Assembly (NCBI GenBank): GCA_020024395.1
Contig: JAHHTV010000005.1
Coordinates: 1 to 22,292, forward strand
From: Anaerotignum sp.
GTDB lineage: Bacteria; Bacillota; Clostridia; Lachnospirales; Anaerotignaceae
DNA: 22,292 bases
Direction of reading: 5' to 3'
Shown: piece after piece, positions 3,839 to 9,467 of the stretch
Layout: each line of letters begins with the position of its first letter
Numbering within the stretch: the first letter of the stretch is position 1
The notes under the pieces: generated by a model
Databases searched by the model: none
The model's input: only the letters and a program-made list of their open reading frames with translations
What the model was told of the DNA's origin: nothing
Made by a program: the position numbers and the translations under genes

Positions 3839-4630
3839 ATGTTTACCATTGGAAATTATGTAAAAGTTTCCAGTCTGGAAGAAGCATATAAATTAAACCA
3901 AAAAAAGTCCAATGTGATTTTTGGTGGTGGTGTTTGGTTGCGTTTGGGTAAAAAAAATATACAAACTGCCATTGATTTGTCACAGTTGGGGTTGGATACC
4001 ATTACAGAGAATGAAAATGAATTTTCCATTGGTGCAATGGTGCGTTTGCGTCAATTAGAAACACACAAAGGTATTGATGCATATACAAAAGGTGCTGTCA
4101 AAGAAAGTTTGCGTCATATTGTTGGGGTGCAAATGCGAAATTGTGCCACAGTGGGCGGCAGTATATTTGGCAGATTTGGATTTTCCGATATTTTGGCTTG
4201 TCTTTTGGCTTTTGATTGTGATGTGGAATTATATAAAGCAGGTAGAATATCTTTGCAAGCATTTGCAGGTATGAAAAAAGATAATGATATTTTGGTGCGT
4301 GTGATATTGAAAAAATCGCCTGTGGAAGCGGTATATTTGTCACAAAGAAATACGGCAACCGATTTTCCAGTGGTTTCTTGTGCAGTGGCAAAACATACAG
4401 ATGGTGTGTATGCAGTGATTGGGGCAAGACCTTGTCAACCCATTATCATCAAAGACGAATATAGCATTTTGCAAAATAATACTGCAGAAAATATACAACA
4501 ATTTGCAATACAAGCAGCCGAAAGTGTGGCTTTTGCAGATAATACAAGAGCAAGTGCAGCATATCGCAAACACGTTGCGGCGGTTTTGATAAAAAGAGGT
4601 ATGACAAAGCTTTTGGGAGGTGACAAATAA
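3839..4630 (+). CDS. xdhB: Xanthine dehydrogenase FAD-binding subunit
   Basis: This 263-residue protein is the flavin subunit of a three-subunit molybdenum hydroxylase. It would pass electrons from the iron-sulfur subunit to NAD or another acceptor in the cytoplasm. Two FAD-loop motifs are visible: FGGGVWL (28-34), a variant of the usual AGGTDL loop, and MRNCATVGGSI (99-109). The C-terminal segment around residues 236-253 (TRASAAYRKHVAAVLIKR) is the typical CO-dehydrogenase-flavoprotein C-terminal helix. Length is slightly short of E. coli XdhB. An AGGAGG site (3826-3831) sits 7 nt before the ATG. Its stop shares one base with the next start (TAATG). It is the first gene of a four-gene operon. 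Xanthine as substrate is inferred from the large subunit and from the guanine deaminase nearby; another purine or N-heterocycle is possible. Confidence 0.88.
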   Translation: MFTIGNYVKVSSLEEAYKLNQKKSNVIFGGGVWLRLGKKNIQTAIDLSQLGLDTITENENEFSIGAMVRLRQLETHKGIDAYTKGAVKESLRHIVGVQMRNCATVGGSIFGRFGFSDILACLLAFDCDVELYKAGRISLQAFAGMKKDNDILVRVILKKSPVEAVYLSQRNTATDFPVVSCAVAKHTDGVYAVIGARPCQPIIIKDEYSILQNNTAENIQQFAIQAAESVAFADNTRASAAYRKHVAAVLIKRGMTKLLGGDK

Positions 4631-5097
4631 TGCAAATCAAACTGCATTTGAATGGAAAAGAAGTGCTTGCAGATGTGGCACCAGATATGATGTTGCTGGA
4701 TTTTGTCAGAGAACAAGGGTGTTATAGTGTCAAAAGAGGGTGTGAAACTTCTAATTGTGGATTATGTACCGTATTGATGGACAATAGACCAATATTATCT
4801 TGTTCTACACTGGCTGTGCAGGCAGATGGACATGATGTGATGACAATGGAAGGCTGTCAGGAAGCGGCAGAAGAATTTGGTGCATTTTTGGCAGACCAAG
4901 GGGCAGAACAATGTGGTTTTTGTAGTCCTGGTTTTATTATGAATGTGCTTGCAATGTGCCAAGAAATGGAAAATCCTACAGATGATGAAATCAGAGAATA
5001 TTTGGCAGGGAATTTGTGCCGTTGTTCTGGCTATCAGGGGCAACTGCGTGCCATTCATAATTATATGGCATACAAAAGAAGGGAGGCGAAAGCATGA
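4630..5097 (+). CDS. xdhC: Xanthine dehydrogenase 2Fe-2S subunit
   Basis: This 155-residue subunit carries both [2Fe-2S] clusters that relay electrons from the molybdenum centre to FAD. The ferredoxin-type cluster ligands are Cys38, Cys43, Cys46 and Cys58 (GCETSNCGLC ... SC). The second, helical-domain cluster uses Cys95, Cys98, Cys130 and Cys132 (QCGFC ... CRCSGY). Length matches the family (E. coli XdhC is similar). The gene overlaps the upstream stop by 1 nt and the downstream start by 4 nt (ATGA), so the three subunits are probably made in equal amounts. All eight cluster cysteines are present. The symbol follows E. coli usage; other organisms apply xdhC to an unrelated maturation factor. 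Confidence 0.92.
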   Translation: MQIKLHLNGKEVLADVAPDMMLLDFVREQGCYSVKRGCETSNCGLCTVLMDNRPILSCSTLAVQADGHDVMTMEGCQEAAEEFGAFLADQGAEQCGFCSPGFIMNVLAMCQEMENPTDDEIREYLAGNLCRCSGYQGQLRAIHNYMAYKRREAKA

Positions 5098-7370
5098 AGT
5101 TTGTCAATCAACCCATTCGCAAAAAAGATGGTATGGCATTGGTAACAGGAAAACCAGTATATACCGATGATATTGCACCAAAAGATTGTTTGGTTGTAAA
5201 AGTGTTAAGAAGCCCACATGCACACGCCATCATAAAAGAAATCAAAACCGATATTGCAAAAAAATTGCCCGACATTGCTTGTGTATTGACATATGAAGAT
5301 GTACCACAAAATCGTTTTACAATGGCAGGGCAAACATATCCAGAGCCTAGCCCATATGATAGATTGATATTAGATAAAAGGGTGCGTTTTGTGGGTGATG
5401 CAGTGGCGATTGTGGCAGGGGAAACAGAAAAAGCGGTTGAAAAAGCCATGAAAACCATAAAAGTGACTTATGAAGTGTTGGAGCCAATATTGGATTTTAG
5501 AAAAGCAAAAGATAATCCGATTTTGATACACCCAGAGGAGGACTGGAAATCACTTTGTCCTGTGGGTGCAGATAATAAACGAAATTTGTGTGCTTGTGGT
5601 TTGGAAGAACATGGTGATGTAGATAAAGTGTTTGCAGAATGTGATGTTGTTATGGAAAATACATACCACACAAAAGCAAATCAACAAACTATGATGGAAA
5701 CATTCCGTACATATACACAGATGGACACATATGGCAGATTGAATATCATTAGTTCTACACAAGTTCCTTTTCATGTGCGTCGTATATTGGCAACTGCTTT
5801 GGATATTCCAAAATCAAAAATTCGTGTGATAAAACCAAGAATTGGTGGTGGTTTTGGTGCAAAACAAACGGTGGTTGCAGAGGTATATCCTGCTATTGTG
5901 ACGATGAAAACAGGTCGTCCTGCAAAAATCATTTATACCAGAGAAGAAAGTTTGATTGCTTCTACACCTCGTCATGAAATGGAAATTGATGTGCGTATTG
6001 GTGCAATGCAAGATGGTACAATTCGTGCAATTTCTGTCAATACACTGTCTAATACAGGTGCATTTGGGGAACATGGCCCAACAACTGTGGGACTTTCTGG
6101 TCACAAATCTATTCCTTTATACAGCAAAGCAGAAGCATTCCGTTTTCAATACGATGTGGTATACACAAACCATATGTCCGCAGGGGCATATCGTGGATAT
6201 GGTGCAACACAGGGGATTTTTGCCGTAGAATCTGCGGTGAATGAATTGGCAGCAAAGTTGAACATAGACCCGGTGGCATTGCGTCAAAAAAATATGACAA
6301 CACAAGGCGATGTCATGCACGCATATTATGGGGAACAGACAAACAGTTGTGCATTAGACCGTTGTTTACAAAAAACAGCTGAGATGATTGGTTGGAAAGA
6401 AAAATTTCCTGCACAGGTGATGGAAAACGGAAAAATCAGAGCTGTGGGGATTGCTATGGCAATGCAGGGTTCTGGTATCCCCAATTTAGATACGGGGGCT
6501 GTGACAATCAAAATGAATGATGATGGTTTTTATGCATTGTCCATTGGGGCTTCGGATATGGGAACTGGTTGTGATACCATATTGGCACAAATGGCAGCAG
6601 ATTGTTTGGATTGTTCTGTGGACGACATTGTAGTGCATGGGGTAGATACGGATATTTCTCCTTATGACTGTGGTTCTTATGCGTCTAGCACAACATATGT
6701 TACCGGTATGGCAACAGTCAAAGCCTGTGAAACATTGATAAATAAAATGAAACAATATACAGCAGAAAAATTGGGTTGTGATATGGAAGAACTAGAATTT
6801 GATGGTGAAAAAGTGTATCATATCAAAACAGGAGATAGTATTGCAAGAAAAGATTTGGGTAACATGAATATGTGTGCGGCAACAGAAACATTGGTGGCAA
6901 CAGAAGCACATTGTTCTCCTGTTTCTCCCCCACCTTTTATGGCAGGTGCGGCAGAAGTGGAAATTGACCCAGAAACAGGCGATATCAAATTGATAGATTA
7001 TGCGGCAGTTGTAGACTGTGGTACCGTTATCAATCCAAATTTGGCAAGAGTGCAAGTAGAAGGCGGTTTGGTACAAGGCATTGGTATGGCATTGCATGAA
7101 GATATTGTGTATAACGCATATGGCAGTTTGGCAGGCAATTCTTTGATGCAGTACAAAATCCCAACACGTTTGGACATGGGACAGTTGCGTGTGGAATTTG
7201 AAAGCAGTTATGAACCAACAGGGCCTTTTGGTGCAAAATCTATTGGGGAAATTGTTATCAATACGCCATCTCCTGCCATTGCACATGCAGTATATAATGC
7301 AACAGGTGTGCGTGTGACAGAATTGCCTATCACACCAGAAAAAATTGTTATGGGTATGAAACAAAAATGA
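5094..7370 (+). CDS. xdhA: Xanthine dehydrogenase molybdopterin-binding subunit
   Basis: This 758-residue catalytic subunit would hydroxylate xanthine (and perhaps hypoxanthine) to urate with water as oxygen donor. The N-terminal ald_Xan_dh_C domain (about 15-130) is followed by the molybdopterin-binding region. Visible family motifs are STQVPFHVRR (221-230), GGGFGAKQ (251-258), AYRGYGATQ with the active-site-region arginine (365-373), GASDMGTGCD (485-494), DCGTVINP (641-648), and Glu719 in KSIGE, matching the catalytic glutamate of the family. Length and motif spacing closely resemble E. coli XdhA. It sits between the 2Fe-2S subunit and a MocA-like gene with 4-nt overlaps on both sides. Substrate specificity within the purine hydroxylases cannot be fixed by eye; the guanine deaminase downstream favours xanthine. 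Confidence 0.88.
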   Translation: MKFVNQPIRKKDGMALVTGKPVYTDDIAPKDCLVVKVLRSPHAHAIIKEIKTDIAKKLPDIACVLTYEDVPQNRFTMAGQTYPEPSPYDRLILDKRVRFVGDAVAIVAGETEKAVEKAMKTIKVTYEVLEPILDFRKAKDNPILIHPEEDWKSLCPVGADNKRNLCACGLEEHGDVDKVFAECDVVMENTYHTKANQQTMMETFRTYTQMDTYGRLNIISSTQVPFHVRRILATALDIPKSKIRVIKPRIGGGFGAKQTVVAEVYPAIVTMKTGRPAKIIYTREESLIASTPRHEMEIDVRIGAMQDGTIRAISVNTLSNTGAFGEHGPTTVGLSGHKSIPLYSKAEAFRFQYDVVYTNHMSAGAYRGYGATQGIFAVESAVNELAAKLNIDPVALRQKNMTTQGDVMHAYYGEQTNSCALDRCLQKTAEMIGWKEKFPAQVMENGKIRAVGIAMAMQGSGIPNLDTGAVTIKMNDDGFYALSIGASDMGTGCDTILAQMAADCLDCSVDDIVVHGVDTDISPYDCGSYASSTTYVTGMATVKACETLINKMKQYTAEKLGCDMEELEFDGEKVYHIKTGDSIARKDLGNMNMCAATETLVATEAHCSPVSPPPFMAGAAEVEIDPETGDIKLIDYAAVVDCGTVINPNLARVQVEGGLVQGIGMALHEDIVYNAYGSLAGNSLMQYKIPTRLDMGQLRVEFESSYEPTGPFGAKSIGEIVINTPSPAIAHAVYNATGVRVTELPITPEKIVMGMKQK

Positions 7371-7951
7371 AAATTTGTTGGATATTGTTGGCAGCAGGCT
7401 GTGGCAGACGGTTTGGTGAAAATAAATTGTTATATCCTGTGAAAGGAAAATGCTTGTATCAACATGGATATGAACAGATAAAAGCCGCAGCAAAACAACG
7501 CCAAGAACAGTTGATTGTGGTGACATCACATCCAGAAATTGCAGATTGTGTAAAAAAAGAGGGTGTTATGGTTGTTTGGAATGATACACCAAAAAAAGGA
7601 ATTACTTTCTCTATACAATGCGGATTGTCTGCCGCAAAAGGGATACAAAATGATATGGCGTATTTGTTTGCAGTGGCAGACCAGCCGTTTTTGACAAAAT
7701 CTGTATTACTAGCCTTTGCAAATGCATTTTCACAATCCGGAAAAGACATGGGCTGTATGGCATATGGTACAAAGTGGGGAAACCCTGCAATATTTTCAGC
7801 AAAAATGGCAAAAAAACTGCTATATCTGAAAGGGGACAAAGGTGGAAAACAGTTATTGAAAAAAAATCCAACAAGTGTTTTTGTTTACCAATGCCCCACA
7901 GATAAAATGTTATATGATATTGATACAAAAGAAGATTTGGAGGGTATCTAA
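7367..7951 (+). CDS. mocA: Molybdenum cofactor cytidylyltransferase-like protein (MocA/MobA family)
   Basis: This 194-residue nucleotidyltransferase is likely to attach CMP to the molybdenum cofactor, giving the dinucleotide form used by xanthine-dehydrogenase-type enzymes. Motifs are the nucleotide-binding loop LAAGCGRRFGENKLL (8-22), VADQPF (103-108) at the metal site, WGNPAIF (137-143), LKGDKGGKQLL (154-164) and DIDTKEDL (184-191). These fit the MocA subfamily better than classical MobA. It starts within the stop of the molybdopterin subunit gene (ATGA overlap), consistent with a maturation factor dedicated to that enzyme. The 3' end of the gene forms the left arm of a terminator. CMP rather than GMP as the nucleotide is inferred from the family and the client. 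Confidence 0.85.
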   Translation: MKICWILLAAGCGRRFGENKLLYPVKGKCLYQHGYEQIKAAAKQRQEQLIVVTSHPEIADCVKKEGVMVVWNDTPKKGITFSIQCGLSAAKGIQNDMAYLFAVADQPFLTKSVLLAFANAFSQSGKDMGCMAYGTKWGNPAIFSAKMAKKLLYLKGDKGGKQLLKKNPTSVFVYQCPTDKMLYDIDTKEDLEGI

Positions 7952-7969
7952 AATGGATATCCTCTTTTT
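7940..7969 (+). terminator. Rho-independent terminator overlapping the mocA stop
   Basis: GAGGGTATC (7940-7948) pairs with GATATCCTC (7956-7964), giving 9 bp with one G-U pair around a 7-nt loop. T5 (7965-7969) follows. The left arm is coding sequence for the last residues of mocA and the loop holds its stop codon. It ends the xanthine dehydrogenase operon before the separate guanine deaminase promoter. Confidence 0.8.
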
Positions 7970-7985
7970 CATATCAAAAAATGGA

Positions 7986-8014
7986 TTGACTTTTTTTGTA
8001 CAAAAGTGTATACT
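7986..8014 (+). promoter_or_regulatory. Sigma-A promoter of the riboswitch-guanine deaminase transcript
   Basis: TTGACT (7986-7991), a 17-nt spacer and TATACT (8009-8014) are close to consensus with ideal spacing. The predicted start near 8021 lies about 7 nt before the riboswitch P1 helix, which supports the assignment. The terminator just upstream separates it from the xanthine dehydrogenase operon. Confidence 0.75.
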
Positions 8015-8027
8015 TCTATCGGATAAA

Positions 8028-8098
8028 AACTTATATAGACCCATAATTTGGTTGGGTGTTTCTACTGTGGTTACCGTAAATTTCCCGCACTATAAGTT
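8028..8098 (+). ncRNA. Purine riboswitch aptamer, guanine class
   Basis: P1 is a perfect 8-bp helix (8028-8035 with 8091-8098). P2 pairs ACCCA (8039-8043) with TGGGT (8053-8057) around a loop containing the conserved GG (8050-8051). The junction J2/3 is GTTTCTAC (8058-8065), identical to the xpt aptamer. L3 contains ACCGTAAA (8073-8080), whose CC can make the loop-loop contact with the GG of L2. J3/1 ends in AC (8089-8090) directly before the 3' strand of P1. The base equivalent to position 74 is C8090, which in this class specifies guanine/hypoxanthine rather than adenine. P3 is irregular (TGTGG with CCGCA, plus unpaired pyrimidines at 8081-8084), so it is a somewhat divergent member. It precedes guanine deaminase, which fits guanine as ligand. 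Confidence 0.9.
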
Positions 8099-8161
8099 TT
8101 TGTGTCATTCATTTTTTATTTGGAATGGGGCAAAATAAAAGGGATTTGGCGGTATTTTTTT
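8072..8161 (+). promoter_or_regulatory. Riboswitch expression platform: terminator competing with the aptamer (predicted ON switch)
   Basis: Bases 8072-8086 (L3 loop and 3' side of P3) can pair with 8141-8154 (GGGATTTGGCGGTA). The pairing is UACCGU with GCGGUA, AAAU with AUUU, and CCC with GGG, with small bulges. T7 follows at once (8155-8161). The enclosed loop holds a second hairpin (8098-8110 with 8123-8135, including CATTC/GAATG and TTTTG/CAAAA). Because the terminator's left arm consists of aptamer bases, guanine-bound aptamer and terminator exclude each other, so ligand should allow transcription. This is inferred from base pairing alone. Confidence 0.65.
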
Positions 8162-8186
8162 ATGCAAAAAAGGAGGATGTGTTGTA

Positions 8187-9467
8187 ATGAAAAGAGAAAA
8201 TTTTGTTTGCAAAGGTGATATTTGTTATAGCCAAAATTTACAGACATTGCATACAGTGCAAAATGGTTATTTGGTATGTGAAAATGGCGTTTGTGCAGGT
8301 GTGTTTGATACATTGCCAGAACAATATAAAAATTTTGACATTTTGGATTATACAGGAAAATTGATATTGCCCGGATTTACAGATTTGCATGTGCATGCAC
8401 CACAACACCGTTTTCGTGCATTGGGAATGGATTTGGAGTTGTTGGAATGGCTGGAAACACATACATTTCCACAAGAAGCAAAATATGCGGATACCACATA
8501 TGCAAAAGAAAATTATGCTCGTTTTGTAGAAGAAATGAAAAAAGGTCCCAATACAAGAGCTTGTGTGTTTGGTACAATACATGGTGCATCTACAGAAATT
8601 TTGATGGAACTTTTAGAAAATGCTGGTTTGTGTGCGATGGTTGGGAAAGTAAATATGGACAGAAATAGCCCTGATTATTTGCAAGAAGAAAGTGCAGAAG
8701 TTTCTGCAAAAGATACCATTACATTTTTGGAGCATATGAAACAAAAATACCCACATGTAACCCCCATATTGACACCCAGATTTTTGCCTACTTGCAGTGA
8801 TACATTGTTGACAAAATTGGGTGATATACAAAAAAAATACAAAATCCCTGTGCAATCCCATTTGTCTGAAAACACATCAGAAGTAGAATGGGTAAAAGAA
8901 TTGTTCCCTACGTCCAGTTGTTATGGCGATGCTTATGATAGTTTTGGTTTGTTTGGTGGGGAAAGTTGCCCGACTATTATGGCACATTGTGTTTTGAGTG
9001 GAGAAGTAGAAATTGCTTTGATGAAAAAACGTGGCATTTTTGTGGCACATTGTCCAGAGTCAAATAGCAATTTGCTGTCTGGTATTGCCCCCATACGTCG
9101 TTATTTGGATGAAGGGATTTCTGTTGGATTGGGAAGTGATATTGCAGGTGGTACACGATGTTCTATTTTTTATGCGATGGCAGAAGCTGTACGTATGTCA
9201 AAAATGCGTTGGCGTTTGGTAGATGAAAGTCTTGCACCTTTGACAGTGCCAGAAGTATTTTATTTGGCAACCGTTGGTGGGGGTGCATTTTTTGGAAAAG
9301 TGGGGAAATTTGAAAAGGGATATGCATTTGACGCATTTGTGTTAGATGACAGTAGATATGACAACAAAGGAGAATACAACATTGCACAACGTTTGGAAAG
9401 AGCTGTCTATTTGAGCAATGATGATGAAGTGTTACACAAATTTGTAGCAGGCAGACAGTTGTTCTAA
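8187..9467 (+). CDS. guaD: Guanine deaminase
   Basis: This 426-residue amidohydrolase converts guanine to xanthine and ammonia in the cytoplasm. Metal and active-site motifs of the guanine-deaminase branch are present: PGFTDLHVHAPQ with His68 and His70, SHLSEN (His225, Glu228), AHC with His267, HCPESNSNLLSG (288-299), and GLGSDIAGG with Asp318. Length fits bacterial and eukaryotic GuaD of the amidohydrolase type, not the short cytidine-deaminase-like guanine deaminase of Bacillus. An AGGAGG site (8171-8176) is spaced 10 nt from the ATG. The transcript begins with a guanine-class riboswitch. The gene lies directly after a xanthine dehydrogenase operon that would consume its product. A related aminohydrolase activity cannot be excluded but is less likely in this context. 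Confidence 0.9.
   Translation: MKRENFVCKGDICYSQNLQTLHTVQNGYLVCENGVCAGVFDTLPEQYKNFDILDYTGKLILPGFTDLHVHAPQHRFRALGMDLELLEWLETHTFPQEAKYADTTYAKENYARFVEEMKKGPNTRACVFGTIHGASTEILMELLENAGLCAMVGKVNMDRNSPDYLQEESAEVSAKDTITFLEHMKQKYPHVTPILTPRFLPTCSDTLLTKLGDIQKKYKIPVQSHLSENTSEVEWVKELFPTSSCYGDAYDSFGLFGGESCPTIMAHCVLSGEVEIALMKKRGIFVAHCPESNSNLLSGIAPIRRYLDEGISVGLGSDIAGGTRCSIFYAMAEAVRMSKMRWRLVDESLAPLTVPEVFYLATVGGGAFFGKVGKFEKGYAFDAFVLDDSRYDNKGEYNIAQRLERAVYLSNDDEVLHKFVAGRQLF

Follow-up and report, generated by a model that had tools for sequence, protein, structure and literature searches.

A guanine-type riboswitch upstream of a guaD-like gene of Anaerotignum sp. is predicted to be a transcriptional ON switch

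Results

A guaD-like gene of Anaerotignum sp. is preceded by a leader that very probably acts as a transcriptional ON riboswitch of the guanine type, inducing guaD. The leader lies in the window, i.e. the whole 22,292-nucleotide stretch of DNA that was analysed (Table 1). Sequence comparison supports the aptamer, a mutually exclusive helix, covariation of that helix, conservation of the leader in relatives, and the gene. A note made earlier from the letters alone (the original prediction) had inferred that guanine would prevent termination in this leader. The ON logic held up at the sequence level, since aptamer and terminator exclude each other, 30 of 35 guaD terminators take their arm from the 3′ half of the aptamer, and the helix covaries.

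Table 1. Features of the guaD leader and the following gene (window coordinates)
Feature	Position	Strand	Basis
Promoter-like TTGACT-17-TATACT, start expected at ~8021, just before P1	7986..8014	+	motif; counterparts in relatives
Purine riboswitch aptamer, guanine-type (C at position 74)	8011..8112	+	RF00167, 50.1 bits, gathering 37
P1 5′ strand (partner 8091-8098)	8028..8035	+	RF00167 alignment and fold
J2/3 GUUUCUAC, predicted ligand pocket, U51 kept	8058..8065	+	sequence, RF00167 alignment, fold
L3 and P3 3′ strand, serving as predicted terminator 5′ arm	8072..8086	+	8072-8077 and 8083-8086 pair with the 3′ arm in the free fold
J3/1 A73 C74, predicted guanine specificity	8089..8090	+	sequence and RF00167 alignment
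Terminator 3′ arm	8141..8154	+	fold, shuffle test; CGGTA kept in 7/7 leaders aligned
T7 tract of the intrinsic terminator	8155..8161	+	sequence; kept in the 7 leaders aligned
Shine-Dalgarno AGGAGG of guaD	8171..8176	+	sequence
guaD-like gene, 426 aa, probable guanine deaminase	8187..9467	+	TIGR02967, 352 bits; best PDB match 2i9u

The aptamer and the downstream gene

A covariance search with the Rfam Purine model, proposed as a check in the original prediction, gave a match above the gathering score (50.1 versus 37 bits; E 5.9e-6) at 8011-8112 of the + strand. This match covered the whole model (1-102) and was the only Rfam match at the gathering score within the window. The predicted guanine-class aptamer with C at the specificity position was thereby recovered, with C74 at 8090. 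P1 (8028-8035/8091-8098, 8 pairs) and P2 (8039-8043/8053-8057, 5 pairs) are intact. P3 (8067-8070/8084-8088) consists of 4 pairs with one bulged base, two non-standard pairs and two one-base insertions, and because of this weakness the affinity of the aptamer in the window could be low. The remaining pocket letters are also of guanine type, with U51 at 8063, U47 at 8059 and U22 at 8036, under position numbers that we take to be those of the xpt structures. U22, U51 and C74 are named as pocket positions in the accessible part of PMC9295807.

The RF00167 alignment places one inserted base after J2/3 in the window, which is absent from six close relatives. The UCUAC of J2/3 and C74 were kept in all 31 guaD aptamers compared. 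At position 73 of J3/1, the 5′ neighbour of C74, these 31 aptamers have A (18), U (nine) or C (four), the Rfam consensus being A. The pocket letters ruled out two other classes: xanthine-II, as GUUUCUAC keeps U51 where that class has U51G, and adenine, as position 74 (8090) is C, not U. A false Rfam match was rejected on the basis of the score and of the conservation of the leader in relatives.

The product of 8187-9467 is an amidohydrolase and probably, as judged from its family matches, a guanine deaminase. Its best NCBIfam match is TIGR02967 (guanine deaminase) at 352.2 bits, which is below the equivalog cut-off of 375.4 and still the best among the families matched. Among PDB entries, the protein matches 2i9u best (402 bits), which is a cytosine/guanine deaminase related protein. 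Of the guanine deaminase gene originally predicted at this place, the GuaD-like gene thus stands, while the identity of the enzyme is still inferred, the TIGR02967 cut-off being missed.

Three promoter-like sites were found in the region, compared with 3.4 expected by chance from shuffles, and the elements corresponding to the one listed in Table 1 read TTGACA and TATACT in relatives L235-L238. The upstream unit may end at a terminator-like hairpin (7939-7965). The region directly upstream (window 3839-7951) carries xanthine dehydrogenase-like genes for FAD, iron-sulphur and molybdenum subunits, together with a MocA-like cytidylyltransferase gene.

A terminator built from aptamer bases

In the minimum free energy fold of 8021-8161 (-30.3 kcal/mol), 8072-8077 pair with 8149-8154 (6 pairs) and 8083-8086 pair with 8141-8144 (4 pairs), followed by T7. 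The pairing of L3 and the P3 3′ strand with 8141-8154, as originally proposed, is therefore present in the free fold. When P1, P2 and P3 were enforced, as the original prediction had suggested for comparison, the terminator was lost: the energy rose by 5.6 kcal/mol, to -24.7 kcal/mol, and the closest predicted helix (4 pairs) stopped 4 bases short of T7. The two folds indicate that aptamer and terminator are mutually exclusive, and ligand should therefore favour read-through. A terminator 5′ arm built from aptamer bases (8072-8086/8141-8154, before T7) is the mark of a pbuE-like ON platform.

When the post-aptamer segment was shuffled with its dinucleotides preserved, a duplex as good as that of the two arms (-15.0 kcal/mol) arose in only three of 2000 cases. 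The 6-pair run by itself arises readily by chance (198/2000 shuffles), and the stability of the whole-leader fold is ordinary (z -1.11).

Six close leaders (L213 and L235-L239, of which L235-L237 share one aptamer) precede genes whose GuaD products are 71-76% identical to that of the window. Aligned with the window, these leaders retain the aptamer, TACCG, CGGTA and the T-run, with a spacer that varies in both length and sequence. TACCG and CGGTA are paired in the free fold of six of the seven leaders, the best fold of L239 being in a shifted register, and enforcing P1 costs 3.2-6.7 kcal/mol across the set. The P3 of the window is poorer than, and different from, that of the six relatives, which have A facing C at the base of L3. 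A mismatch at the same place in pbuE is reported to aid strand exchange (available text of PMC7707468), and for this reason an ON switch may be well served by a weak L3 base.

Covariation of the terminator helix

The original prediction had been made to depend on covariation of this helix in homologous leaders, and the helix was found to covary in 27 guaD and in 29 non-guaD leaders. Among the 27 guaD leaders, 6 of the 9 pairs changed on both sides, the covariation score was 0.301 versus 0.233 when shuffled (0/500), and 87.2% of cells were paired versus 28.8-50.3% when the arms were slid; registers in both alignments were picked for best pairing, which inflates pairing. The 29 non-guaD leaders agree (0.298 versus 0.153 shuffled). 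The count of pairs changed on both sides was reached by 8/500 shuffles in the guaD set and by 16/500 in the non-guaD set. The guaD alignment retained 27 of 29 rows, as L025 had no usable register and L067 is identical to L066, and the tract of L002 was set by hand to the overlapping terminator. The non-guaD alignment retained 29 of 38 rows, nine having been dropped because their register was absent or poor or because they were near-identical to a kept row.

Changes from A-U to G-C at the last base of P3 must also fit P3. Changes within L3 that are matched by the arm (CCC/GGG in L124, CCTTA/TAAGG in L208) need not, and they therefore argue for the terminator itself.

A swapped-arm test, in which T-tracts were chosen on T content only and related sequences inflate the result, compared each leader's own arms with those of other leaders. 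Own pairing was reached by 0/5000 permutations for 37 guaD leaders, and likewise for a 24-leader set, compared with 760/5000 for 28 xpt, BMP-lipoprotein and ncs2 leaders. By class, the counts were 3/5000 for the FAD-dependent protein group, 366/5000 for xpt and 3672/5000 for BMP. In the window itself, the T-content rule selects a different, earlier tract. Only 13 of 24 guaD arms were better than shuffled arms at p 0.05, versus 0/10 for BMP and xpt.

Distribution of purine aptamers and guaD leaders

A Lacrimispora locus (L001; family Lachnospiraceae, order Lachnospirales), whose GuaD is 59% identical to that of the window, likewise carries an RF00167 aptamer in front of guaD. In 299 genomes of this family, 82 Purine matches were found in 65 genomes, and guaD in 67 genomes. 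The commonest gene behind the aptamer was guaD (30/82 matches, the window being additional). A class-wide search for guaD matched 20 of 391 genomes, with an aptamer in 2 of the 19 loci scanned; scans of other guaD loci with Rfam at the gathering score found an aptamer in 0/9 and 0/20. An order-wide aptamer search of 392 genomes gave 127 matches in 95 genomes. The class-wide and order-wide searches added 22 guaD leaders, for a total of 53, of which 47 have distinct aptamers.

From the 82 family matches plus the window, L074 and L077 were dropped for lack of a gene on the contig. Of the 127 order-wide matches, 15 were already in the set, 26 were left out, one (G537) was the same as L123, 30 were taken as loci and 55 were added to the set. 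Two of these 30 loci (L167, L174) were dropped because the aptamer could not be placed, and the 55 additions were picked mainly by lower score, in order to reach window-like leaders. Collapsing identical aptamers reduced the total from 166 to 154 and the guaD leaders from 53 to 47.

Position of the terminator arm by gene class

The 154 distinct aptamers were classified by the pairing partner of the last 8 bases before each T-tract. Apart from guaD, gene classes were defined by clustering and one member of each was checked, and in the newly added non-guaD leaders start codons are approximate, so that T-tracts may be missed or added. A terminator was detected in 35 of the 47 distinct guaD leaders, with the arm on the 3′ half of the aptamer in 30 (P3/L3 in 28, J3-1/P1 in two). 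An arm on P3/L3 or J3-1/P1 was found in 0/14 xpt leaders, in which it lay after the aptamer (10/14) or on the aptamer 5′ half (4/14), and in 0/10 BMP-lipoprotein leaders with a tract. The contrast between guaD (30/35) and xpt plus BMP (0/24) gave a Fisher p of 5e-12, with leaders treated as unrelated. The four xpt arms on the 5′ half weaken this predicted contrast, but it remains strong: with these arms counted as overlapping, p is 1.2e-7, with leaders again treated as unrelated.

The same arm positions were found in xanthine dehydrogenase-like (5/5), MATE (4/4), adenine deaminase-like (1/2) and unclassified leaders (7/18), as well as in leaders of ncs2-type (2/2, eight more being without a tract) and azgA-type (4/9) permeases. 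By predicted pairing, then, aptamer overlap is shared beyond catabolic genes, as the two permease types illustrate.

The terminator was classed as post-aptamer in five of the 35 guaD leaders (L071, L089, L002, L197 and L207). L002 also has an overlapping terminator and L197 was half assigned elsewhere, while L071 and L089, with the terminator after the aptamer, do not fit ON and may not be ON switches. L089 and L223, both guaD leaders, share one aptamer sequence, have a separate terminator 3′ of the aptamer, and are exceptions to the ON architecture.

A terminator was not found in 12 of the 47 distinct guaD leaders. The Shine-Dalgarno sequence is predicted to pair with the aptamer (≥0.5), mostly with J2/3, in 11 of these 12, compared with 5/27 guaD leaders with a terminator. 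Translational ON control in the terminator-less leaders is a suggestion only, because for most of the 12 comparable pairing was obtained with shuffled spacers.

A FAD-dependent protein with a PF21688 C-terminal domain (one representative checked) is encoded after the purine aptamer in 28 distinct leaders, with the arm on P3/L3 in 22 of the 25 that have a terminator. These leaders include L009, L012, L017, L019, L028, L030, L065, L070, L076, L078, L084, L085, L087, L090, L099, L109 and L110.

Discussion

We propose that RNA polymerase would start at ~8021 and transcribe the aptamer. Without ligand, 8141-8154 would invade L3 and the P3 3′ strand (8072-8086), breaking the L2-L3 contact and the ligand pocket; the terminator ending at T7 would form and guaD would be left untranscribed. 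Guanine, the presumed ligand, would have to bind at the three-way junction fast enough during transcription to block the invasion, allowing read-through and production of GuaD, which would in turn deaminate guanine to xanthine. Such a circuit would be made by RNA alone.

The same ON architecture could have hypoxanthine, xanthine or the purine pool as its physiological inducer rather than guanine, which we consider unlikely. Guanine-class pockets discriminate only ~10-fold against hypoxanthine and xanthine (accessible part of PMC9295807), and a C. difficile permease riboswitch of the guanine class is reported to be xanthine-specific (available text of PMC11477304). The xanthine dehydrogenase-like genes just upstream in the window and the variable position 73 of the guaD aptamers point the same way. 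On the other hand, the first gene is GuaD-like, with guanine as its expected substrate, U51 and C74 are kept, and no XDH gene is present in the ~9 kb examined upstream of guaD in L247, L248 and L249. Because xanthine, the product, may itself be a ligand of such aptamers, the circuit may be driven by the purine pool and not by guanine alone.

Drift of P3 could also have left a decayed, non-switching leader, with the gene constitutive or always terminated. This is rather improbable: the P3 of the window, with its mismatches and insertions, is unlike that of the six relatives and the score is only 50 bits, but the pocket letters, L3 CCG, L2 GG, both arms and the T-run are all kept, and strand exchange in pbuE reportedly benefits from a weak L3 base (PMC7707468, as far as its accessible text goes). 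Control at translation instead of transcription has little to recommend it in the window, where a terminator is present and the Shine-Dalgarno sequence (8171-8176) lies beyond the T7 tract; the pairing seen in 11 of 12 guaD leaders without a detected terminator would favour it, were it not similarly produced by shuffled spacers in most of them. Least probable is an ordinary OFF switch as in xpt, in which ligand promotes termination. This is the textbook direction of the guanine class (PMC9295807 and PMC11477304, accessible parts), yet it was ruled out as a candidate because the terminator before the start codon takes its 5′ arm from aptamer bases and cannot coexist with the formed aptamer, and because the xpt and BMP leaders of the same survey use neither P3/L3 nor J3-1/P1 (0/24). 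We therefore retain the guanine-type transcriptional ON switch as the preferred explanation.

Previously described ON switches with this aptamer fold are pbuE and the predicted guanine-II and xanthine-II classes. B. subtilis pbuE, an adenine-responsive transcriptional ON switch that controls an efflux pump, has the same aptamer fold as the guaD leader. The latter differs in having C at position 74 (U in pbuE), a gene for a degradative enzyme, and an outer arm that starts in L3/P3. The Vibrio add adenine riboswitch is a translational ON switch of a deaminase gene; in both cases a deaminase gene would be turned on by its substrate, through adenine and translation in add and through a guanine-type aptamer and termination here. 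The guanine-I switches of xpt type (OFF) share the aptamer family and pocket letters with the guaD leader and are opposite in direction. According to the accessible text of PMC7707468, formation of the pbuE terminator disrupts P1 and P3, and ligand prevents it.

The available part of PMC9295807 describes guanine-II (Paenibacillus, phosphoribosyltransferase genes) as a guanine-binding aptamer of this fold that is predicted to be ON. It is characterised by a single insertion in J2-3 and differs in its further junction variations and salvage genes; one base is inserted after J2/3 in the window and none in its six aligned relatives. Xanthine-II, according to the same source, is also predicted to be ON, precedes purine degradation genes and has some terminators that partly overlap the aptamer. 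It carries U51G and junction insertions, whereas U51 is kept here; in both, a purine-catabolic gene is predicted to be turned ON. A guanosine variant of the fold is likewise predicted to be ON there, and the word 'deaminase' is absent from the main text of that paper.

Our literature search, which covered mostly papers outside subscription, turned up no description of guanine deaminase under a guanine-type switch. In the accessible parts of the sources, some deaminase genes occur with the xanthine-I motif (PMC7373994), C. difficile has four guanine riboswitches, all OFF (PMC11477304), and the C. acidurici riboswitch described is a glycine one (PMC3519856). A B. thuringiensis purine switch precedes nupR, guanine deaminase being treated separately (PMC9430930, accessible text), and guaD appears only in a pathway legend in the portion of PMC11566853 that was available.

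The usual description of guanine riboswitches is that of OFF devices acting on synthesis, salvage and uptake, and here the direction is apparently reversed. We give even chances to the broader proposal that the guanine-type aptamer of Lachnospirales serves a two-way RNA regulon, OFF on xpt and nucleoside uptake, and ON on guaD, xanthine dehydrogenase-like genes, the PF21688 FAD-dependent protein and MATE. If so, the same purine signal would shut salvage and open degradation and export with no protein regulator, and the FAD-dependent protein would probably be an unrecognised purine-catabolic enzyme. One aptamer class seems to bear opposite platforms within one order, depending largely on whether the gene is one that uses purine or one that destroys it, which offers a natural set for studying how platform direction flips with the sensor unchanged. 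From the switch one would expect purine degradation in these bacteria to be induced by its substrate, and the recurrent FAD-dependent protein would be linked to purine metabolism.

Guanine-type aptamers with overlapping terminators also precede MATE transporter genes in L008, L098, L101 and L226 (one representative checked), and these leaders are possible purine efflux ON switches like pbuE. Purine aptamers lie ahead of adenine deaminase-like genes in L011 (the representative checked), L181, L185 and L186. In genome G165, two purine aptamers (L013 and L064), both with overlapping terminators, are ~1.5 kb apart, one located before guaD and the other after guaD and before an xdhA-like gene.
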